35,843 nt of DNA. Source: Gammaproteobacteria bacterium (lineage in GTDB: Bacteria > Pseudomonadota > Gammaproteobacteria > Pseudomonadales > JAUIET01). Positions 759-26,175 of the stretch are shown here, piece by piece. Position numbers and translations under genes: made by a program. Positions within the stretch are counted from its first letter, which is position 1, and each line of letters opens with the position of its first letter. The notes under the pieces are model-generated. The model saw nothing but the letters and a program-made list of their open reading frames with translations. It was not told the origin of the DNA and made no database searches. Where the stretch lies: positions 1 through 35,843 of the forward strand of contig JAUIHW010000041.1 of the NCBI GenBank assembly GCA_030431775.1. Direction: 5' to 3'.

Positions 759-1445
759 GTGATTGTTTTCGATGCAGTCAGCAAGCGCTACCCGAACGGT
801 CACCAGGCACTGCAGAGTATCAGTGCTGAGATCGGCCGAGGTGAACTGGTTTTCCTAACCGGGCATTCCGGTGCTGGAAAAAGCACGCTTTTGAAACTGA
901 TCATGCTGATTGAGAGGGCCAGCGAAGGGGAAATTCTGGTTGGTGGTCAAAAGCTCAGCGAGTTTTCCAACCACCGTATTCCCTATTTGCGCCGCCAGAT
1001 TGGCTTTGTTTTTCAGAATCACCAATTGCTGTTTGATCGCAGCGTGTTTGATAACGTCGCCCTGCCATTAAAAATAGCCGGTTTTGAAAGTCGGGACATT
1101 CAGCGTCGGGTTCGAGCGGCATTGGCCAAGGTTGGTCTGGAAAATTACGATAAACAACGGCCGGAAAACCTGTCCGGGGGTGAGCAGCAAAGGGTTGGCA
1201 TTGCCCGTGCGGTGGTCAATCGCCCTAAAATTCTGCTGGCCGATGAGCCCACCGGCAACCTGGACCCGGCATTGTCGGCGGATGTCATGGATATATTCGA
1301 GCAGTTTAGCCAGGTGGGTGTCACGACATTGATTGCCTCCCACGACCTGGCCTTGATAGCGCGCTTACAGCACCGGATTCTGACCTTGCGCAGTGGCCAG
1401 CTTTTGCACGATGTCAACAGTCGCGACGGAACCGGCCATGAATAA
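759..1445 (+). CDS. ftsE: Cell division ATP-binding protein FtsE
   Basis: This 228-residue ABC ATPase starts at a GTG 2 nt after the ftsY stop. It has Walker A GHSGAGKST, a Q-loop (FVFQNHQLL), signature LSGGEQQR, Walker B LLADEPTGN and the H-loop SHD, and matches the usual FtsE length. FtsE pairs with FtsX in the inner membrane; in the family the complex links divisome assembly to periplasmic peptidoglycan hydrolase activation through EnvC-type partners. Its end overlaps the start of ftsX by 8 nt (ATGAATAA), implying translational coupling. Confidence 0.97.
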   Translation: MIVFDAVSKRYPNGHQALQSISAEIGRGELVFLTGHSGAGKSTLLKLIMLIERASEGEILVGGQKLSEFSNHRIPYLRRQIGFVFQNHQLLFDRSVFDNVALPLKIAGFESRDIQRRVRAALAKVGLENYDKQRPENLSGGEQQRVGIARAVVNRPKILLADEPTGNLDPALSADVMDIFEQFSQVGVTTLIASHDLALIARLQHRILTLRSGQLLHDVNSRDGTGHE

Positions 1446-2409
1446 CGAAACCAGTAGGCGCGGCGCCAGCCAGGCGGAAGCGGGCTTTGCCGCGCAGCTG
1501 AAATCCTACTACGCGCATCACTGGGTGACGTTCAAGGAGAGCTGGCGGCGACTCTGGAGTGCCCCGGTCAGTACCCTGTTAACCTGGTTGTTGGTGGGTA
1601 TAGCGCTGTCACTTCCAAGTGCGCTTTACCTGGTATTGCAGAACGCAGAACTGGTGCGCAGCGGTTGGCAGGGCAGCGCGCAACTGTCGGTGTACCTGGA
1701 CGGACAGCTCAGTGAGCAGAATAGCCAAACACTACTGACAGAATTGCAGGCAGATCCACTGGTGCAGGCTGCTCGCTATGTGTCCAAGCAGCAGGCCATG
1801 GAGGATTTTGAGGCGCTGTCGGGAATTCAGGGCGTTATTGAGGGCTTTGCCGAGAACCCCCTGCCCGCATCCATACTGCTGACCTTGTCTGGAGAGGCCT
1901 TACCCAGCCGCAGTCAACAGCTGGCAGAGCGAATAGGCAGTATGCCTGGAGTCAGTGATGTACAGGTAGACTTGCAATGGCTGGAACGCCTGTACCAGAT
2001 TTTGCTGCTCGGGGAGCGGGTTGCCTGGGTATTGGCACTATTGCTGGCCATTGCGATTGTGCTGGTGGTCGGGAACACCATTCGCTTGAGCATTGAAAAT
2101 CGCCGCGAGGAAATTTTGATCGTCAAACTGGTGGGCGCAACAGCTGCCTATGTACAGCGCCCGTTCATTTATTTCGGGCTGCTGTTTGGTCTTGGTGGTG
2201 GCTTGAGTTGCCTGCTGATTTTGTTGGCTGGCTACTGGTGGATAGGTACGCCAATGCGGGCGCTCAGCGAGGCTTATGGAAGCCACTTTGTGCTGCAGGG
2301 CCCAAGCCCACTGGATGCCTTTCTGCTGCTGGCATTCAGCACCGCTTTGGGGGTTCTCGGAGCCTGGACAGCGGTTGTTCGGCATTTGCGCGATATAGAG
2401 CCCAAATAA
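1438..2409 (+). CDS. ftsX: Cell division protein FtsX
   Basis: Membrane subunit of the FtsEX complex, 323 residues from the ATG at 1438. That ATG sits in ATGAATAA overlapping the ftsE stop; an in-frame upstream ATG at 1393 would bury 45 nt more in ftsE and adds no family-like sequence. The order is a cytoplasmic N-terminus, a first membrane segment (around STLLTWLLVGIALSLP), a large periplasmic loop (the PLD region, with QLSVYLDGQLSEQ), then three closely spaced C-terminal membrane segments, as in FtsX/MacB-like permeases. It is the last gene before a 107-nt gap carrying the rpoH control region. Confidence 0.96.
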   Translation: MNNETSRRGASQAEAGFAAQLKSYYAHHWVTFKESWRRLWSAPVSTLLTWLLVGIALSLPSALYLVLQNAELVRSGWQGSAQLSVYLDGQLSEQNSQTLLTELQADPLVQAARYVSKQQAMEDFEALSGIQGVIEGFAENPLPASILLTLSGEALPSRSQQLAERIGSMPGVSDVQVDLQWLERLYQILLLGERVAWVLALLLAIAIVLVVGNTIRLSIENRREEILIVKLVGATAAYVQRPFIYFGLLFGLGGGLSCLLILLAGYWWIGTPMRALSEAYGSHFVLQGPSPLDAFLLLAFSTALGVLGAWTAVVRHLRDIEPK

Positions 2410-2450: not shown

Positions 2451-2477
2451 GGAACTTTTCATGGATTAGCACTCTAA
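2451..2477 (+). promoter_or_regulatory. Sigma-E-like promoter upstream of rpoH
   Basis: A -35-like GGAACTT (2451-2457) is followed after 15 nt by a -10-like TCTAA (2473-2477). This resembles the extracytoplasmic sigma-E consensus and the sigma-E promoters of E. coli rpoH and rpoE as I remember them; their spacer is one base longer. The predicted transcript would start near 2484, giving a leader of about 33 nt to the ATG at 2517. The match is by eye. Confidence 0.5.
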
Positions 2478-2492
2478 CTTTATGAGTGCTAG
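2466..2492. promoter_or_regulatory. CIRCE-like inverted repeat (HrcA operator) before rpoH
   Basis: The sequence reads TTAGCACTC-N9-GAGTGCTAG. The canonical CIRCE element bound by the heat-shock repressor HrcA is TTAGCACTC-N9-GAGTGCTAA, so 17 of 18 arm positions and the exact 9-nt spacer agree; only the last base differs. The left arm overlaps the -10 of the sigma-E-like promoter and the right arm covers the expected transcription start, an ideal position for repression. The element ends 24 nt before the rpoH ATG. HrcA is not encoded in this window. Confidence 0.8.
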
Positions 2493-2516
2493 AATAGTGG
2501 CATGAAGGGGGAATCA

Positions 2517-3377
2517 ATGGAATTCACACACAATCAGCTGCAAGCAGCTCCAATGCTGGTGCCGGGTGCTAACCCGGGCAATTATATTCAGTCCGTGAGC
2601 TCAATCCCGGTGTTGACGCGGGAGCGGGAACAGGAGCTTGCTGAGGCTTATTTTTACCACGAAGACCTCGAAGCGGCGCGGGAGCTGGTTATCTCCCATC
2701 TCCGGTTTGTCGTGCACATAGCCAAAAGCTACAACGGCTATGGCCTGCCCCAGGCTGACCTGATTCAAGAGGGTAATGTCGGCTTGATGAAGGCGGTAAA
2801 GCGCTTTAATCCTGAAAAAGGGGTGCGCTTGGTGTCGTTTGCCGTGCACTGGATCAAGGCAGAAATACATGAGTATGTCATCCGCAACTGGCGGATCGTC
2901 AAAGTGGCCACCACCAAGGCTCAGCGCAAGCTGTTTTTTAATTTGCGCAGCAGCAAAGAACGCCTTGCGTGGCTCACCCATGACGAGGCGAAGGCGGTTG
3001 CCGCCGATCTTGGCGTGGACCTCAAAGACGTGCAGCAAATGGAAGGTCGGCTGACGGCCAGCGACCTGACCTTTGATGCACCAGCCAACGAGGATGAAGA
3101 GCATGCCTTTGCGCCGGTACATTTTCTGCAGGACAGCAGCGCTGACCCGGCTGAAAAAGTGGAAGCTGAGGACTGGGAAAGCGCTACGCAGCAGCAGCTC
3201 TATCAGGCACTGGATGCGCTGGATGAACGCAGTCGGGAAATTCTCCGACAGCGCTGGCTGGGTGAAGGAAAGGCAACCTTGCATGAGCTGGCCGATTTGT
3301 ACGGAGTTTCCGCTGAGCGAATTCGTCAGTTGGAAAAGAATGCGATGAAAAAACTGAAGGCCGCGATCGCGGCCTGA
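2517..3377 (+). CDS. rpoH: RNA polymerase heat-shock sigma factor RpoH (sigma-32)
   Basis: This 286-residue group 3 sigma factor has a region 2 core ([44 protein letters not shown]), the RpoH-specific box QRKLFFNLR that separates sigma-32 from RpoD and RpoS, and a region 4 helix-turn-helix ending near [14 protein letters not shown]. The ATG at 2517 is chosen because AAGGGGG lies 6 nt upstream of it; an in-frame ATG at 2502 has no such site and would place the ribosome-binding site inside the gene. RpoH directs transcription of chaperones and proteases on heat or misfolding stress. Upstream lie a CIRCE-like operator and a sigma-E-like promoter, suggesting joint HrcA and envelope-stress input. 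Confidence 0.97.
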
Positions 3378-17516: not shown

Positions 17517-19652
17517 ATGAGCAGAACAGACAGCAGTCGCAGTGGTGATTCGGGCAACGGGGGAATAATTGCGCTCGGCGTAATATTTCTGGTTGCTTTG
17601 GGCGTCTTTGCCTGGAGCCTTTACGTGGTTAACAGGGATGCCGGTTATGACGCGCGTTATCAGGAAGTGACCGGCGATTTGCGTGTATTGGCGCAACAAC
17701 TGTCCTCCAGTTCGCGCCTTGCAATCGGTGGTGACGGGCAGGCCTTCCAGGATTTGAATGACGGCGCGGCCAAGTTCGACAGCAACCTTACTCTGTTGCA
17801 GCAGGGCGATGCCGCTTTACCGTCGCCTGGAGGTATGTTGAGCCAGGAGCTTGAGCAACTGAAGACGCAGTGGATTCCAGTGCAACAGGCTGCCGGTACG
17901 ATGGTTGCCAACCGCGACCGCATTCTGTTCCTGCACGAAGTTGCCAAAACACTTAACGACTCCATTCCCGAGCTCCAGCAGGAATACAATAACGTGGTGG
18001 AAATTCTGCTCGAAGGTCGTGCACCTTCAGATCAGGTCGCGCTGGCACAGAGGCAGTCGTGGCTGGCCGAGCGGATAGCACGCAACGTGGACAAAATGCT
18101 GGAAGGTGGTGAAGGCGCTGATCAGGCAGCCGACCAGTTCAACCTGGACGCCAGTCTGTTTGGTAGTGTTCTCGATGGCATGTTGAACCGCAATGCGGCA
18201 ATGCGCATCAGCCGGGTGACTGACGCTGATGCGCGTGCCAGTCTGGTGGAAATTTCCAAGTTGTTTGAGTTCGTCAGCGGTTCGGTTGATGAAATTTTTC
18301 AGGCTTCTCCCGACCTCCTGCAAGCCCGCGAAGCAGCCGATGCGATTGCGGTCGGTACCCCCCAGGTGATGGCCTCAACCAGCGCACTATCAGACGCGAT
18401 TGCCGGGCTGAGCGACCGTCGCCAGATTACCCCGCTTTGGGTCATGATCTCAGGCGCCGTGATGTTGCTGGCGCTGGCAGCGATCGGCATTCTTACCCTG
18501 CGCAATACTCGTAATCGCCTGTCGCATACAGCAGAAACCAATGACCAGAACCAGCAGGCTATTTTGCGACTTCTGGATGAAATTGGTGATCTGGCGGATG
18601 GTGACCTCACCACCAATGCGACGGTGACCGAAGATTTCACCGGTGCGATTGCGGATTCGGTCAACTACGCGATCGGGCAGCTGCGTGAGTTGGTGTCCAA
18701 GATCAACGACACCGCCGTGTCGGTGTCAGCCGCTGCCGAAGAAAACCAGCGCAGTTCTCTCAGCCTTGCACAGGCTTCGGAAAAGCAGGCCAGAGAAATT
18801 GCCGGAGCGTCCGACGCAGTGAACGAAATGGCCAAAACCATTGACCAGGTATCGTCGAACGCCAGCGAATCATCAAATGTTGCGCAACGCTCGGTAGAAA
18901 TAGCCAACAGCGGCGGCCAGCTGGTGCGAAATACCATTACCGGGATGGACAATATCCGCGAGCAGATCCAGGAAACCTCGAAGCGTATTAAGCGGCTTGG
19001 TGAAAGCTCACAGGAGATTGGTGACATCGTATCGTTGATCAACGACATCGCAGATCAAACCAACATCCTGGCACTGAATGCGGCCATTCAGGCCTCCATG
19101 GCCGGTGATGCCGGGCGCGGCTTTGCGGTCGTTGCTGACGAGGTGCAGCGTCTTGCTGAGCGTTCCGGTGCGGCAACCAAACAAATCGAAGCTCTGGTAA
19201 AAACCATTCAGTCTGATACCAATGAAGCGGTGATCTCGATGGAGCAAACCACGACTGAAGTGGTTCGTGGCGCACGTACTGCGCATGACGCGGGTGTCGC
19301 GCTGGAAGAGATCGAGAACGTCTCGACCAACCTGGCCGAATTGATTCAGAACATATCCAATGCGGCGCGACAGCAAGCCGTGTCGGCGGGTAATATTTCA
19401 AACACCATGGGAGTTGTGCAGGGTATCGCCAACCAGACTTTGGAAGGTACAAAAACTAGCGCGACATCGATCGGAGAGCTGGCATCAATGACCAACCAGC
19501 TCCGTGAATCTGTGGCCGGCTTCAAATTGCCGGCAGACAACGATTGGGAGCCGGAGCTGCCCCAGCAGACTGACCAACTGGAGGATATGGAGTCCTTTTT
19601 AGGAATTGAAGATAAAGATGAGGACGGCAACGCAGTAGTCAGTGCTGCATGA
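17517..19652 (+). CDS. pilJ: Type IV pilus methyl-accepting chemotaxis receptor PilJ
   Basis: A 711-residue receptor. TM1 spans about residues 15-38 (GIIALGVIFLVALGVFAWSL), a helical periplasmic region with PilJ-type sensor repeats follows, TM2 is at about 303-327 (PLWVMISGAVMLLALAAIGILTL), then HAMP and the signalling domain. The hairpin tip (around residue 513) reads ADQTNILALNAAIQASMAG, with S-M in place of the usual A-R, as I recall for PilJ in Pseudomonas. It senses pilus or surface contact and signals through PilI and ChpC to ChpA. It ends without a CheR-docking pentapeptide, and no methyltransferase gene follows. The ribosome-binding site is GGGGAG, about 9 nt upstream. Confidence 0.95.
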   Translation: MSRTDSSRSGDSGNGGIIALGVIFLVALGVFAWSLYVVNRDAGYDARYQEVTGDLRVLAQQLSSSSRLAIGGDGQAFQDLNDGAAKFDSNLTLLQQGDAALPSPGGMLSQELEQLKTQWIPVQQAAGTMVANRDRILFLHEVAKTLNDSIPELQQEYNNVVEILLEGRAPSDQVALAQRQSWLAERIARNVDKMLEGGEGADQAADQFNLDASLFGSVLDGMLNRNAAMRISRVTDADARASLVEISKLFEFVSGSVDEIFQASPDLLQAREAADAIAVGTPQVMASTSALSDAIAGLSDRRQITPLWVMISGAVMLLALAAIGILTLRNTRNRLSHTAETNDQNQQAILRLLDEIGDLADGDLTTNATVTEDFTGAIADSVNYAIGQLRELVSKINDTAVSVSAAAEENQRSSLSLAQASEKQAREIAGASDAVNEMAKTIDQVSSNASESSNVAQRSVEIANSGGQLVRNTITGMDNIREQIQETSKRIKRLGESSQEIGDIVSLINDIADQTNILALNAAIQASMAGDAGRGFAVVADEVQRLAERSGAATKQIEALVKTIQSDTNEAVISMEQTTTEVVRGARTAHDAGVALEEIENVSTNLAELIQNISNAARQQAVSAGNISNTMGVVQGIANQTLEGTKTSATSIGELASMTNQLRESVAGFKLPADNDWEPELPQQTDQLEDMESFLGIEDKDEDGNAVVSAA

Positions 19653-19686
19653 GCACGTTCATCACAGCCTATAGGCGAAGCATCAC

Positions 19687-22600
19687 ATGGCGGAACAGCT
19701 CGATTACGTAGCGTTTGAATGGGTAACCTCAGAGCTTGATGACACGATCAAGCAGGCTCGCCAGGCGCTGGAGGCCTATAGTCAGGATAGAACCGATTTT
19801 AGCAAGCTGCGTTTTACCCTAACTCATAGCCATCAAATCAATGGCACTTTACGCATGGTGCAGCTGGTTAATCTGGTTGCGCTGGCCGAGGAGATGGAGG
19901 CCGTTGCTCAGGCGTTGGTGAATCAGTCGACCACCGACGAGGATTCCGCGCTGGAAACGCTGATGACGGCACTGCTGCAGTTGCCCGGTTTGCTGGAGCG
20001 CGTCAAGAAATTCAAAGACGATATTTCACCCGCTGCATTGCAGCCCATCATCAATGAGTTAAAAACGGTGCGCGGCGCCGAGCCTGCACTTGCGCCAAAA
20101 ACAATAGATTTTTCAGCAGCGTTTTCCAGCCGGGTCAGCCGTGAAGAATTCGATGACCTGATGCTGAAGCTGCGCAAAATGTTTCGCGTGGCAGTTTTAA
20201 ACATTGCGCGAAATCTGGACGTCGAAAAGAATGTCCGCTATCTGGCTCAAATCGGCCAGCGTATCCACAAGATCAGTCAGAACACGGCGCAGGAGACTTT
20301 CTGGCGGGCCGCACTTGGCCTGTTTGAGGCTGTTGAAGAAGGCAGTCTGTCGATCAGCAATGAAGTGGCTGATCTGTTACTTGAGATGGACAAGCTGCTG
20401 ATAAATATTGCATCCACTGGACCGGAGGCAATGCAGGATACGGCACCGGACTCTGTGCACCGCTCGGTCAAGGCCTTGCTGGTGACCGTCGAATCGGAAT
20501 GTCCGCTGGTTAACGATTTACAGAAGCTGTGGTCAGAAGAGCTCAAGACGCCGAGCGAATTACAGGCCATGGGCCCGGACCGTGATACTTTGCAGTCAGT
20601 GGTCGATGCTCTGCTCGAAGAGTTAGCCAGTATCAAAGATTATATCGACCTGTTTGTGCGCAATCAAAACCATCAGGAAGTGGATCTAGAGCCGGCCCTA
20701 CCGGTGTTTCAGCGCGTCATCAACACAATGATGGTGCTGGGACTGGGCGATGCCCTGCGAACCGTAAGGCGGCAGGCTGAATCTGTTCAACAGATGGTTT
20801 CCGGTCAGCTAGAGCCGGGTCCGGATGCGTTGATGGAAGTCGCGGAAAACATCATCAGTGTCGAGGCAATACTTAAAGAATCGGTGGATCAGGAAGATGC
20901 TGCGGTCGCCAGTCAGACCAGCGAGCGCGATCGCCAGCTTGCCGCAGCCTTTGAATCGGTAGTCAGTGAAGCGCGCATTGGCATAGAACAGGCCAAGGAA
21001 GCGGTCATCGAGTTTATCGCTCATCAGTGGGACCATCAGCGATTAACCGGAGTGCCACAGTTACTGTCCGAGGTTCGCGGCGGTCTAATGATTCTGCCTT
21101 TGCAGCGAGCGGCCGATATTCTCGCCAGTTGCGAGTGGTATGTCTGTGAGGATTTACTGCTGGCACGTCGTGTGCCGGAATGGCAGATGCTGGATACATT
21201 GGCCGATGCACTGACCAGTGTTGATTATTATCTGGAACGGGTGGCACAGGATTCGCCCACCGAGAGCGATATGATTCTTGATGTTGCTGTGGAAAGTGTC
21301 GCCGCTCTCGGCTATCCCATCACCGACCTGCAGCGATGGGAGCGTCGGCCCGAGCTTTACGATACCAGCGATATCGGCGAGGACGACGATCTTCAAATTA
21401 CTGACTTTATGGTCCTGGATGACGATTTTGATCAGTTCGCCGCTGCCCGTCTTAAAGACGATATCGACGCCCGTGAGCAAGTAGTGTCAACAGAGCCATC
21501 GGCAAGTGACGCAGGCACGTCTATCAACGAGCCCGAGGCTACTGCGGAGGTCGATGCAGTAGAGACGCTGCGCAGTGCATCGGCAGCGACGGATGAGTCG
21601 GGCAACCAGGTCAACGCCGAAGTCGATGAAGAGATTCTGGAGATCTTCACCGAAGAGGTTACCGAGGTTCTCACCGAAGTAGACCAGCATATCGGTCGGA
21701 TGCATGACAAAGATGCACTGGTAGAGATCCGCCGTGGTTTTCACACCCTCAAAGGCAGCGGGCGAATGGTCGGTGCTAACGATGCTGGTGAGTTGGCCTG
21801 GAGTATCGAGAACATGCTGAACCGTGTTATCGATGGTTCGCAATCTCTGACTCCGGCCCATAGCGCGATTGTACGAAAGGCACGAGAGCTGATGCCTGAG
21901 TTGCTGGGGGATTTCAGTCGGGGTACAGCCCTTTCCAGTCGGGCTTCAGAGCAACTCAGTGAACTGGCAGATGCCGTCAGTACCGGGCAGAGCGATATCT
22001 GCTCAGCTGAGCAGGTAGACGCTGTTTGCGCCAGTATGGCAGAGGCCACGCTGGAAACCGAGCCGTCTGATTCAATTGAATCGTTAGCTCAGTTCGATGA
22101 CGAACTTGAACTGGACGAAGATGGACAGGAATTCGCAATAAATCTGCTAGCGGAAGACAGTACGTCTGAAGAAACGTTGCAAGAGCCTGCTGCCGAGGAG
22201 CTGATAACGCCGGAGAGCTCTCCGGGAGCAGAGTTAAGCGCAGCAGAAAACGATGCCGAAGACGCCGAGGAAGCGCTTGCATTGCAGGGTATTTTTACCG
22301 GAGAGGCGCTGGAGCATCTGCAAACCATCGACCAATATGTCGCAGACTATCGGCAAGGCTCGGCAAACTCGGTCAGCGAAAACCTACACCGGGCGCTGCA
22401 CACCATAAAAGGCAGCGCGCGAATAGCGGGTTTTGAGCACATCGCGGCATACGTGGCACCGACGGAGGAGTTTGTCCTCAGCCTGCACCAGCGGCGCCAG
22501 CCTGTGGATCATGCGGGTTTAGAATTGCTTGAGGCTGTCAGTGAGCAGCTGCGCCTGGATATCAAGCAACTACCGGAGCAACCACCTGAGTCTGTTGCGG

Positions 22601-25600
22601 CAGCCATGAAATTGCAGGAACGCGCACAGGACTTGCTGGCCGTTTCGGAGGCTGAGCACGAAACTCAGGCGTCTCAAAATGAAAGCAGTACAGAGTACGG
22701 ACAATTGCCTGCACTTGAATACCGGACGCTGCTCGCAGATCGAATTGGCGCCTGTGACAAGCTGCTCGCACAAGCTAAAGCCGGGCGTTCTGCCTGTGAT
22801 GCTCTGCTGCGAATTGCTGATAATCTGCGAGTAATTGCCGGGCATTCGGTCCAGCAACCTCAGATCGAACAGCTTGCCCTGGCAAATGCAGAGTTATTTG
22901 AGCAGGCGGCAACGCTTGACTGGTTGCCGGAAAGTTTCTTTGCGCTCGCCGATCAAGTTCAAGAGGGCATCTCGACCAGCGTGGACTGCTACGCCGCCGG
23001 CCAGGAGGTCCAAGAGCTGGACAGTTGGCAACAAGCGCTGCAGGTCGCCGAGGAATTCGACCTGTCCAGCTTTCAAAAAGAGCTGCATGACGTTGAGGAA
23101 GCCGTTGAGGAAGCCGAACAGCTTGCTGATGAGCAGATTGAGAGCAGTACAACTAGCAGTACCGATCTTTTGATTTCACGCTGGATGAAGGACCAGCTTG
23201 AAAGCCCTACGCCGCAGGAAATGGCCGAGCAGTTTTTTGAGGCAGAACCAAGTGGCGAACAGCGTGCTGTCCTGGACAGCCCGGACAAGACGGCTCCAGA
23301 GTCGCGCAACAATCGTTCCTTGTTTCTGGCCGCTACCGGCTTGCTTGGCAGACAGCAGCGCGCGGATGAACCCGTGTTGGCTGTGCAGCCCGAGCCCGAG
23401 CCCGAGCAGGAGAATATTGCGTCGCTGGAAAGCAATGCGGCGGGTACAGCCGACGCTGGGCAAGAGGCGGGCAGTGCGGAGGCCTTTGCTGAAAACGAAG
23501 CGAGCGAAGCTGATCTGGCATCGCCAGAAATGCCCTTAGCTGACAAGCATCAGGGTGATGCAATCAGTGAGTCTGCAATTGACGACGATAGGGTAGAGCA
23601 AAAGCAAGAGCAAGAGCAAGCTGCCGCTGAACAGCTTAACGATGAGGAGCCTGAGGTTCAGCCGGTACCAGTGACTGACGAGTCAGATGAGGAAGCTGAC
23701 AATGAAATTCTTGAGCTGTTTACCGAAGAAGCGGTAGACCTGCTAGAAGAAATTGATGAAGCGATTTACGCCTGGCGCGAATTACCCGAGCGAGGTCGGC
23801 ACTTTGAAGAAGTGCAGCGCTCCATGCACACCTTAAAAGGCGGCGCGCGGCTTGCCGATGTGACGCTTTTGGGTGATCTTGCGCATGAGTGCGAATCCTT
23901 TATTGAATCGGCAGACCAATCCGGGGGGCAATTTGACTCGGCATTTTTTCAGCAACTGCAGAGCTATGTTGACCGCATTACAACCGCGGTTGACCAGTTA
24001 AGAAACACCGGTGAAGTGCTTGCTGAAACAACACACAGCGACGCGACAGAAGTCCACAGCAGCACCAGTCTACCCGATGAAGATGAACCGACAGAGTATA
24101 CTGCTGGCGAGACGGTAACTGATAGCATGGCCGAAGAGCAGCCAACGCACCCGGCCGAAGCCCTGGAAGGGGAATTGCTTGACCCGCCCGCCGATGCCGA
24201 TCTACCGAATAATGTGGTGCAGATAGCGCCGTCTAGTGACGAGGACTTGTCGAGCCAGCCGGCCTTTGCGGCGGTTAGCGGTAGTTCAGCCGCACCGGCA
24301 ACGGCTGAGAGCAACAAGCGAGCTACCCAGGAGGTGGTGCGTGTGCCCAGCCAATTGTTGGAAAACTTGGTTAACCTCGCTGGTGAGACCAGTATTTCCA
24401 GGGCAAGAGCGGAAGAACAGGTTTCGGACTTCGGCTATTCTTTGGATGAAATGCAGGGCACGGTTGAGCGCTTGCAGGATAAATTACGACGTCTGGAAAT
24501 AGAAACTGAAGCACAGATCCTGTTCCGTCAGGAACAGGTTGCCCAGGAGGGCCTCGACAGTTTCGATCCGCTCGAAATGGATCGTTACTCGCAGCTGCAA
24601 ACTCTGTCACGATCCTTGATGGAGAGCGCCTCTGACCTTTTGGACCTTAAGTCCACGATGAGTGAAAAGGCGCGCGACATGGAGACTCTGTTGCTGCAGC
24701 AGTCGCGAATCAACACCGACCTGCAAGAAGGCCTGATGCAGTCGCGGATGGTACCCTTTTCCCGCCTGGTGCCACGTCTGCGGCGCATTGTTCGCCAGGT
24801 CAGTACCGAGCTTGGCAAACAGGTCGAGTTTGAGTTGCTGAATATTGAGGGTGAGATGGACCGTAGCGTGCTGGAGCGTATGTTGCCTCCGCTTGAGCAT
24901 ATGCTTCGTAACGCGGTCGACCATGGCATCGAGACCGCGGATATTCGCCGTGAATATGACAAATCACCGGTTGGCCACATCAGCTTGGGCTTGATGCGAG
25001 AAGGCAATGAAGTGGTCATCATATTGGAGGATGATGGCGCTGGTATCGATGTGGCCAGAGTGCGAGACAAAGCTATCCAGGCCGGTTTGATGAGCCCGGA
25101 TGCTGATTTGAGCGAGCATGAAATACTCCAGTTCATTATGGAAACAGGAGTCAGCACTGCCAGGGAAATTACCCAGATATCCGGTCGTGGCGTTGGACTT
25201 GATGTTGTCAGCTCGGAAATAAAACAGCTCGGTGGTGCGATAGAGATCGATTCGCGCCGTGGGCTGGGTACCAAATTTGTTGTTCGCTTGCCGTTTACCG
25301 TCTCAGTTAACCGGGCGCTGAACGTATCGGTTGGTAACGACATGTACGCCATTCCCCTGAACAGCATTGAAGGTATTGTGCGGGTGAGCCCTTTCGAGCT
25401 GGAAGCCTACTATCAGCCAGATGCCCCGCGCTTCGAATACGCTGGCCAACCCTATGATCTGCGCTATCTGGGCACCATGCTCGGGCTGGAAGCCGGGCCC
25501 AATGTGCGCAGCTATGCTGCGCCGTTGCCGGTGGTGCTGGTGCGTGCCGGTGATCACGCCGTTGCCATTCAGGTAGATGGTGTGCACGGTAGCAGGGAGG

Positions 25601-26175
25601 TGGTGGTTAAGTCGCTCGGGCCGCAATTTGGGATGGTACACGGAGTATCCGGTGCGACGGTTCTGGGTGATGGACGGGTGGTTGTGATTCTGGACCTGTT
25701 GGCGATTATCCGTCAGCAAGCAAGTATGAGCCAGCCGCAACGCGCACATCAGCTAACAAGCTCTGAGGAGCCGGATGTGCAAGACGACACCATATTGGTG
25801 ATGGTTGTTGACGACTCGGTAACGGTTCGCAAGGTCACCTCGCGCTTCCTTGAACGTCAGGGTATGCGGGTGTTGGTGGCGCGCGATGGGGTGGATGCGA
25901 TGGCTTTGCTGCAAGATAACACACCGGACGTGATGCTTCTGGATATTGAAATGCCGCGCATGGATGGATTTGAGGTGGCAAATCAGGTGCGTCATGACAG
26001 CCGCCTCAAGGATACTCCAATTATAATGATCACTTCGCGCACGGGCGACAAACACCGGGAGCGGGCTTTCTCAATTGGAGTGAATAAATATCTTGGCAAG
26101 CCGTACCAGGAAATGGAGTTGTTGGACGCGATTGTTGATCTGATAGGCGCTGAACGCCTGGAGCAGATAGGCTGA
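19687..26175 (+). CDS. chpA: Hybrid chemosensory histidine kinase ChpA
   Basis: A 2162-residue CheA-like hybrid kinase that controls pili and twitching. Three canonical Hpt sites are seen: H686 (HTLKGS), H905 (HTIKGS) and H1381 (HTLKGG). Degenerate Hpt-like modules lie before and between them: H49 with N52 for lysine (HQINGT), S461 in the His position (SEVRGG), and R1042 (RIADNL). The kinase core follows: CheA dimerisation from about 1550, N-box LRNAVDHG (1740-1747), G1 EDDGAGI (1781-1787), G2 GRGVG (1833-1837), CheW domain about 1874-2015, and a C-terminal receiver with D2042/D2043, phospho-acceptor D2086, T2116 and K2138. Linkers are highly acidic with short repeats. P. aeruginosa ChpA is longer (about 2470 residues) with more Hpt sites. 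Confidence 0.96.
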   Translation: MAEQLDYVAFEWVTSELDDTIKQARQALEAYSQDRTDFSKLRFTLTHSHQINGTLRMVQLVNLVALAEEMEAVAQALVNQSTTDEDSALETLMTALLQLPGLLERVKKFKDDISPAALQPIINELKTVRGAEPALAPKTIDFSAAFSSRVSREEFDDLMLKLRKMFRVAVLNIARNLDVEKNVRYLAQIGQRIHKISQNTAQETFWRAALGLFEAVEEGSLSISNEVADLLLEMDKLLINIASTGPEAMQDTAPDSVHRSVKALLVTVESECPLVNDLQKLWSEELKTPSELQAMGPDRDTLQSVVDALLEELASIKDYIDLFVRNQNHQEVDLEPALPVFQRVINTMMVLGLGDALRTVRRQAESVQQMVSGQLEPGPDALMEVAENIISVEAILKESVDQEDAAVASQTSERDRQLAAAFESVVSEARIGIEQAKEAVIEFIAHQWDHQRLTGVPQLLSEVRGGLMILPLQRAADILASCEWYVCEDLLLARRVPEWQMLDTLADALTSVDYYLERVAQDSPTESDMILDVAVESVAALGYPITDLQRWERRPELYDTSDIGEDDDLQITDFMVLDDDFDQFAAARLKDDIDAREQVVSTEPSASDAGTSINEPEATAEVDAVETLRSASAATDESGNQVNAEVDEEILEIFTEEVTEVLTEVDQHIGRMHDKDALVEIRRGFHTLKGSGRMVGANDAGELAWSIENMLNRVIDGSQSLTPAHSAIVRKARELMPELLGDFSRGTALSSRASEQLSELADAVSTGQSDICSAEQVDAVCASMAEATLETEPSDSIESLAQFDDELELDEDGQEFAINLLAEDSTSEETLQEPAAEELITPESSPGAELSAAENDAEDAEEALALQGIFTGEALEHLQTIDQYVADYRQGSANSVSENLHRALHTIKGSARIAGFEHIAAYVAPTEEFVLSLHQRRQPVDHAGLELLEAVSEQLRLDIKQLPEQPPESVAAAMKLQERAQDLLAVSEAEHETQASQNESSTEYGQLPALEYRTLLADRIGACDKLLAQAKAGRSACDALLRIADNLRVIAGHSVQQPQIEQLALANAELFEQAATLDWLPESFFALADQVQEGISTSVDCYAAGQEVQELDSWQQALQVAEEFDLSSFQKELHDVEEAVEEAEQLADEQIESSTTSSTDLLISRWMKDQLESPTPQEMAEQFFEAEPSGEQRAVLDSPDKTAPESRNNRSLFLAATGLLGRQQRADEPVLAVQPEPEPEQENIASLESNAAGTADAGQEAGSAEAFAENEASEADLASPEMPLADKHQGDAISESAIDDDRVEQKQEQEQAAAEQLNDEEPEVQPVPVTDESDEEADNEILELFTEEAVDLLEEIDEAIYAWRELPERGRHFEEVQRSMHTLKGGARLADVTLLGDLAHECESFIESADQSGGQFDSAFFQQLQSYVDRITTAVDQLRNTGEVLAETTHSDATEVHSSTSLPDEDEPTEYTAGETVTDSMAEEQPTHPAEALEGELLDPPADADLPNNVVQIAPSSDEDLSSQPAFAAVSGSSAAPATAESNKRATQEVVRVPSQLLENLVNLAGETSISRARAEEQVSDFGYSLDEMQGTVERLQDKLRRLEIETEAQILFRQEQVAQEGLDSFDPLEMDRYSQLQTLSRSLMESASDLLDLKSTMSEKARDMETLLLQQSRINTDLQEGLMQSRMVPFSRLVPRLRRIVRQVSTELGKQVEFELLNIEGEMDRSVLERMLPPLEHMLRNAVDHGIETADIRREYDKSPVGHISLGLMREGNEVVIILEDDGAGIDVARVRDKAIQAGLMSPDADLSEHEILQFIMETGVSTAREITQISGRGVGLDVVSSEIKQLGGAIEIDSRRGLGTKFVVRLPFTVSVNRALNVSVGNDMYAIPLNSIEGIVRVSPFELEAYYQPDAPRFEYAGQPYDLRYLGTMLGLEAGPNVRSYAAPLPVVLVRAGDHAVAIQVDGVHGSREVVVKSLGPQFGMVHGVSGATVLGDGRVVVILDLLAIIRQQASMSQPQRAHQLTSSEEPDVQDDTILVMVVDDSVTVRKVTSRFLERQGMRVLVARDGVDAMALLQDNTPDVMLLDIEMPRMDGFEVANQVRHDSRLKDTPIIMITSRTGDKHRERAFSIGVNKYLGKPYQEMELLDAIVDLIGAERLEQIG

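Follow-up and report, generated by a model that had tools for sequence, protein, structure and literature searches.

Which regulators set the supply of sigma-32 in a gammaproteobacterium whose rpoH gene stands directly behind an apparent HrcA operator? In textbooks, sigma-32 of E. coli stands for heat-shock regulation, and its control is presented as mostly posttranscriptional. The initial annotation of the 35.8-kb stretch of DNA considered here (the window) read an inverted repeat upstream of rpoH as CIRCE, the operator of HrcA, embedded in a sigma-E-like promoter, and proposed that sigma-32 itself is a target of the repressor. This reading of an HrcA-controlled rpoH is largely supported by the comparisons below, HrcA binding and the resulting circuit being predicted from sequence.

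A CIRCE operator between ftsX and rpoH

The gene downstream of the repeat is indeed rpoH (2517 to 3377, forward strand), encoding a sigma-32 of 286 amino acids that matches TIGR02392 (E = 1.4e-121; 405 bits against a cut-off of 323) and contains Pfam sigma-70 regions 2 and 4. Its likely start is the ATG at 2517, which is preceded by GGGGGA, and an alternative in-frame ATG at 2502 is the start of the longest ORF. The upstream neighbor is ftsX (1393 to 2409, forward strand; TIGR00439, E = 1.4e-95).

The putative operator, which is assigned to neither strand, occupies 2466 to 2492 and ends 24 bp ahead of rpoH. Its full sequence, TTAGCACTCTAACTTTATGAGTGCTAG, is divided into TTAGCACTC-TAACTTTAT-GAGTGCTAG, the middle part being the spacer, and is predicted as an HrcA binding site of the form TTAGCACTC-N9-GAGTGCTAG. 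As the initial annotation had stated, it agrees with the canonical CIRCE, TTAGCACTC-N9-GAGTGCTAA, at 17 of the 18 arm positions with a spacer of exactly 9 bp, and the sole arm mismatch is the last base, a G in place of A. No other match with at most three mismatches exists in the whole window, and none was produced in 100 dinucleotide shuffles. A chance palindrome is ruled out by this absence from the shuffles and by the conservation over 66 and 89 loci described below.

An inverted repeat that lies between ftsX and rpoH, one arm mismatch away from the consensus, could also be a hairpin in RNA or DNA, serving as the ftsX terminator, an mRNA stabilizer, or a thermosensor rather than as an operator. 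This is highly improbable, since the arms preserve the HrcA consensus itself, beyond mere complementarity, and transcripts from the predicted starts, none of which precedes the right arm, would lack the left arm. Two specific forms of the hairpin were rejected: no T-run follows the repeat and none of the terminators sought by the scan was predicted on this strand, and the modelled fold of 2484 to 2600, the candidate leader thermosensor, is no better than those of shuffles (z = 0.85).

Predicted promoter elements interleaved with the operator

Promoters recognized by sigma-E (RpoE/AlgU) follow the consensus GGAACTT, 15 to 17 bp, TCTRA, and the P3 promoter of E. coli rpoH has a sequence of this type. 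The consensus is satisfied ahead of rpoH in the window by GGAACTT-N15-TCTAA on the forward strand, with the -35 element GGAACTT, read directly, at 2451 to 2457 and the -10 element TCTAA at 2473 to 2477 after a gap of 15 bp. The first two bases of TCTAA are the last two of the left CIRCE arm, an overlap that the initial annotation had described, and the remaining three are spacer bases 1 to 3.

A second promoter element, overlooked in the initial annotation, lies at the other end of the operator. The motif TGCTAGAAT (2487 to 2495, forward strand), which joins the final six bases of the right arm to three flanking bases, resembles the extended -10 of a sigma-70 promoter. A promoter scan of 2300 to 2620 reports only one sigma-70-type site, TTAGCA-N18-TAGAAT at 2466 to 2495, with a TG one base ahead of the second hexamer; its weak -35, TTAGCA (2466 to 2471, forward strand; 4 of 6 positions, spacer 18), lies inside the left CIRCE arm. 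Together, TGCTAGAAT and TTAGCA agree with the definition used for a sigma-70 extended -10, namely, TGNTANNNT with a -35 at 16 to 18 bp. Because shuffles of the same region contain 0.4 sigma-70-type sites on average, this match alone proves little, and the weight for the site is carried by its conservation. CIRCE thus overlaps two promoters predicted by sequence, one of sigma-E type and one sigma-70-like, and supplies the beginning of both possible -10s, two bases to TCTAA from the end of the left arm and six to TGCTAGAAT from the end of the right arm.

HrcA, RpoE, and further sites in the same genome

The absence of hrcA from the genome had been named as grounds for abandoning the proposal, and this objection is excluded by a single HrcA gene (PF01628, E = 2.6e-64), whose product has the C-terminal domain and a winged-helix DNA-binding domain (PF03444, E = 3.1e-7). 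The adjoining gene, on the opposite strand and cut by the locus end, is recN. The E. coli control genome yielded no HrcA match, in agreement with the earlier statement that E. coli lacks the repressor. The recommended search for further operators returned one more site, at groESL; genome-wide, CIRCE with at most three mismatches occurs twice, at rpoH and directly upstream of groES. Besides CIRCE, the groESL upstream region contains CTTGAAA-N13-CCCCAT (found by script), which we take to be a sigma-32 promoter of the textbook form. The genome also encodes RpoE (TIGR02939, 328.8 bits against a cut-off of 236.15), directly followed by the gene for an RseA_N protein, an RseA-type anti-sigma factor, and this RpoE-RseA pair strengthens the reading of GGAACTT-N15-TCTAA as a sigma-E promoter.

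Elsewhere in the window, the stretch from 17517 to 26175 contains an ORF resembling methyl-accepting chemotaxis proteins followed by a CheA-like ORF of 2,162 amino acids whose C terminus carries a response-regulator domain. Both score under the NCBIfam cut-offs, and the pair resembles a chemosensory cluster of the Pil-Chp type.

Conservation within the order

A total of 80 named rpoH loci were compared, the position of CIRCE relative to the rpoH start being estimated from the alignment. CIRCE with no or one mismatch was present in 11 of them, beginning 45 to 58 bp before the rpoH start; these loci belong to Haliea, Halioglobus, other Halieaceae, Parahaliea, Ketobacter, and two unclassified Gammaproteobacteria, and cultured strains such as Parahaliea mediterranea TN14-10 and Haliea sp. 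E1-2-M8 are among them. The remaining 69 have no such site, the best among them showing four mismatches (L048).

Among 194 genomes sampled from the order, 57 contain CIRCE (at most one mismatch), 55 contain HrcA, and 188 contain rpoH. Three of the 55 HrcA-positive genomes could not be judged, because rpoH was not found (G061), lay at a contig end (G185), or was partial (G022); of the 52 with a readable rpoH 5' region, 50 carry CIRCE (at most three mismatches) at rpoH. The two exceptions, G104 and G156, are congeneric, and their CIRCE-like sites are confined to groES, where those of G156 form a tandem pair of degenerate repeats with two and three mismatches before groES (L144, G156:C21:18105-18163). 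Only 5 of the 139 HrcA-negative genomes have CIRCE at rpoH (G016, G086, G090, G140, and G144), and the remaining 134 have no site with at most one mismatch anywhere. Three of the five (G016, G086, and G140) are 95 to 99% complete and carry the operator with no or one mismatch while HrcA was not detected. A tree-based independent-pairs test was run on 86 order-level RpoH proteins, 28 of the 35 HrcA-negative rows being best-scoring RpoH matches and hence a biased choice. It yielded three supported pairs (eight on all branches), which on average agreed with expectation (2.2 in the same direction and 0.0 in the opposite direction) but are too few to reach significance.

An ungapped alignment centered on CIRCE was made from 66 loci of the order with at most three mismatches, after 19 loci had been dropped as same-genome repeats; five with four or five mismatches (L021, L048, L131, L180, and L181) were left out. 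Named loci and order-sample genomes may overlap in this set, and L151 and L152 do not differ within the compared stretch. The conserved positions comprise GGAAC(T/C)TTT, both arms, the spacer bases TAA (T 0.74, A 0.77, and A 0.92 at spacer positions 1 to 3), and the three bases following the right arm, which end in T at 65 of the 66 loci. Weaker preferences exist for A just ahead of CIRCE (0.65) and for G at -4 (0.59), and purines are frequent where ribosome-binding sites fall; the remaining positions are near random. As promoter elements, GAAC at a spacer of 15 to 17 to TC is found at 61 of the 66 loci, TCNNA also at 61, and TGNTANNNT at 65, and all three sets occur together at 57. The conservation of the GAAC and TC..A elements at rpoH loci gives further strength to the sigma-E reading.

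Comparison with CIRCE at groES

If the conserved spacer TAA and the T after the right arm were part of CIRCE as such, they should recur at other targets of HrcA. The 35 groES CIRCEs used for comparison are the groES loci among those retrieved and not a random draw; GAAC is present at 0, TCNNA at 5, TGNTANNNT at 8, and all three sets at 0 of them. The extra bases at rpoH, being rare or absent at groES, therefore probably do not belong to the sequence recognized by HrcA and appear to behave as rpoH promoter elements, the right arm and its flank, TGCTA(A/G)AAT, probably forming the extended -10 of a sigma-70-type promoter. By eye, many groES sites instead have a TTGAC-type -35 and a TAT-rich -10 that ends just ahead of CIRCE.

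Conservation across the Gammaproteobacteria

The class was sampled with 143 genomes, one per family code, of which 101 contain HrcA, 104 contain CIRCE (at most one mismatch), and 131 contain rpoH. Upstream regions of rpoH were retrieved from genomes with a CIRCE somewhere and rpoH, which gave 96 loci from 95 genomes, the locus of the window being additional. CIRCE with at most three mismatches is present at 89 of the 96, perfectly in 49 and with one mismatch in 33. With the window included, 90 of the 131 rpoH-bearing genomes carry CIRCE at rpoH, which makes this a frequent arrangement in the class and not an oddity of the window genome. The repeat is conserved far beyond close relatives in both the order and the class samples, and this excludes a second objection named with the initial annotation, confinement of the repeat to close relatives.

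The operator mostly accompanies the repressor: CIRCE is at rpoH in 82 of the 92 HrcA-positive and 8 of the 39 HrcA-negative class genomes (Fisher's P = 2.7e-14, phylogeny being ignored). For these counts, 35 rpoH-bearing genomes, 31 HrcA negative and 4 HrcA positive, were scored as CIRCE-less from the lack of any site with at most one mismatch, by which weaker sites are missed. The 4 belong to the 10 HrcA-positive genomes without CIRCE at rpoH, and the other 6 were examined directly (G205, G218, G229, G264, G305, and G313). Among the 8 HrcA-negative genomes that keep CIRCE, 4 are 97 to 99% complete (G208, G286, G320, and G327) and carry it with no or one mismatch; for these, as for G016, G086, and G140 of the order sample, a recent loss of hrcA, a gene missed in the search or by an assembly gap, and another protein that binds the operator are possible explanations. 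In G224, which carries two rpoH genes (L286 and L287), CIRCE precedes only one, and a split into repressed and unrepressed copies of sigma-32 is possible.

HrcA may bind at rpoH and yet barely affect sigma-32 activity. CIRCE would then be a minor or growth-phase tuning input, and the main determinants of sigma-32 would be translation, binding by chaperones, and degradation by FtsH, as they are in E. coli, where control by chaperones and proteases is the best-known mode according to the available part of PMC6032397. We regard this as unlikely, because the near invariance of the CIRCE arms over the 89 class loci argues that the site matters to fitness, and because genomes in which HrcA is undetected mostly lack a near-perfect site.

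Over both the 66 and the 89 loci, each kept at no more than three mismatches, the arms are conserved and most spacer and flanking positions are not. The promoter elements are more loosely conserved in the class than in the order: GAAC at a spacer of 14 to 17 to TC occurs at 58 of the 89 class loci, TCNNA at 63, and TGNTANNNT at 79, and the three sets occur together at 39. Since GAAC is missing at that distance from 31 loci and the full set is confined to 39, the sigma-E half belongs to only part of the class. The loss of GAAC from 31 loci next to the retention of TGNTANNNT at 79 would suit a version of the model in which HrcA represses rpoH through a single real promoter, the GGAACTT/TCTAA or the TGCTAGAAT match being fortuitous: the core could be the sigma-70-like half, with the sigma-E half as an addition retained in some lineages, or, conversely, the fortuitous match may be the sigma-70-type one of the window, which by itself is within chance. 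We hold such a single-promoter arrangement to be doubtful, as the 57 order loci and 39 class loci with all three element sets speak against it.

The composite pattern was also searched as a whole, with matches in 93 of 369 class genomes and none in the controls, and all 30 of the 30 matching loci retrieved lie upstream of rpoH. When coordinates were compared by eye for the 31 genomes shared by both class samples, the composite site was before rpoH in 29; the remaining two are G285, without an rpoH call, and G264, where the site is elsewhere. In the latter, a composite of GAAC, CIRCE, and NNT (L364, G264:C8, about 855 to 900; by eye) precedes a gene for a ClpB-like protein, and rpoH has no CIRCE, the best match showing six mismatches. 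The operator may have shifted its target from rpoH in this genome.

Upstream regions of rpoH without CIRCE

A sigma-E-like pattern, GAAC..TC.NA, is present in 33 of 98 rpoH upstream regions that lack CIRCE, against a mean of 1.05 in shuffles. Twelve of the 33 represent one recurring motif near the start (-26 to -28), mostly at Pseudomonas loci, and were not taken for sigma-E promoters. The excess over shuffles is a second argument against a single-promoter arrangement at rpoH.

A possible trace of the left CIRCE arm was sought in 17 of the 33 matches, the 12 with the recurring motif, 3 near-copies, and 1 at -259 having been dropped. The seven bases ahead of the -10 in these 17 selected promoters agree with the left arm at 52 of 119 positions, compared with 28.9 (standard deviation, 4.6) in letter shuffles. 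This trace would fit the decay of an ancestral CIRCE, and it is suggestive only, because the rows are self-selected and related. In P. aeruginosa, the heat-inducible P3 promoter of rpoH needs AlgU, its sigma-E, and the other rpoH promoters are of the sigma-70 type (PMC13104619, available part), which adds to the case for a sigma-E promoter at rpoH in the window.

We lean toward the view that the composite element with two promoters and one HrcA operator is the ancestral form of rpoH control in the Gammaproteobacteria. The wiring of E. coli and Pseudomonas would then be a later simplification, produced when hrcA and its operator disappeared and the sigma-E promoter was retained, at some loci together with a visible remnant of the left arm.

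A proposed circuit for rpoH

The preferred reading, to which we assign a probability of about 0.8, is a composite promoter-operator in which two overlapping rpoH promoters, one of sigma-E type and the other most likely of sigma-70 type, are placed under one HrcA operator within a GroE feedback loop. From the observed sequences, their conservation, the presence of the genes, and the co-occurrence with hrcA, we infer HrcA binding, the sigma factors used, the direction of control, and the loop. In known systems, GroE stimulates HrcA binding, and repression is relieved by GroE titration or, in Helicobacter pylori, by heat itself (PMC6032397, in the sections available). In an unstressed cell of the window organism, GroE-activated HrcA on CIRCE would cover both -10s and keep RNA polymerase off the two promoters, whose transcripts would start near 2484 and 2502 as guessed from the -10 positions. 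Unfolded proteins that titrate GroE, or heat that inactivates HrcA, would open both promoters. The sigma-70-like promoter would then supply sigma-32 upon cytoplasmic folding stress, and under envelope stress, RpoE holoenzyme at GGAACTT/TCTAA would provide an additional input to rpoH. Through the presumed sigma-32 promoter of groESL, sigma-32 would raise GroE, by which HrcA would be reactivated, rpoH shut, and the loop closed.

If the circuit is real, most of the sampled gammaproteobacterial families (90 of 131 genomes) gate sigma-32 synthesis by a chaperonin-sensing repressor, and HrcA stands above, rather than beside, the sigma-32 regulon. The feedback of GroE on HrcA would reach rpoH, and the two classic heat-shock systems would form one nested circuit. 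The arrangement known from E. coli may then be a reduced form of a circuit that is older, and a comparison of lineages that keep hrcA with those that lose it could address the origin of the E. coli arrangement.

Relation to known systems

A search of the literature on HrcA, CIRCE, and rpoH yielded CIRCE at rpoH in PMC545781 alone, as far as the available text of each source goes; Permina and Gelfand (2003), on beta-, gamma-, and epsilonproteobacteria, may hold gammaproteobacterial cases. It is not described in the accessible parts of PMC10696704, PMC9866376, PMC10490939, PMC6032397, PMC13104619, PMC3989490, PMC11764788, PMC8762339, PMC4989314, PMC3557214, PMC5904260, PMC2758279, or PMC9959188. 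Within these sources, the operator, the repressor, and one predicted precedent at rpoH are known, and a class-wide composite with two promoters was not found described. The precedent is Geobacter sulfurreducens, for which Rodionov et al. (2004) predicted a perfect CIRCE 51 bp ahead of rpoH (PMC545781). As in the window genome, TTAGCACTC-N9-GAGTGCTAA stands at rpoH, hrcA is in the genome, and the site is a prediction from sequence. The case differs in being a single genome of a delta lineage, Table 8 of that report listing no rpoH site for G. metallireducens, and no overlap with a sigma-E promoter or an extended -10 is described in the part available.

The classical HrcA/CIRCE systems at groESL and hrcA-grpE-dnaK share the operator, the repressor, and presumed titration of GroE with the one proposed here (PMC6032397, in part). 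In contrast to the groESL CIRCE, the operator at rpoH contains putative -10 elements, and its target is the gene of a sigma factor. The rpoH genes of P. aeruginosa and E. coli resemble that of the window in having a sigma-E-type promoter, P3, and they have separate sigma-70 promoters in addition, for P. aeruginosa according to the available part of PMC13104619. The retrieved Pseudomonas-named rpoH loci, unlike the window, have no CIRCE. In Agrobacterium tumefaciens, RpoH and HrcA reportedly have differential and independent roles, as the primary paper of 1999 puts it in its title. According to the portion of a review that was available, that proteobacterium has the two regulators together, as the window genome does, and each of them acts on groE, whereas in the window genome HrcA would sit above RpoH.
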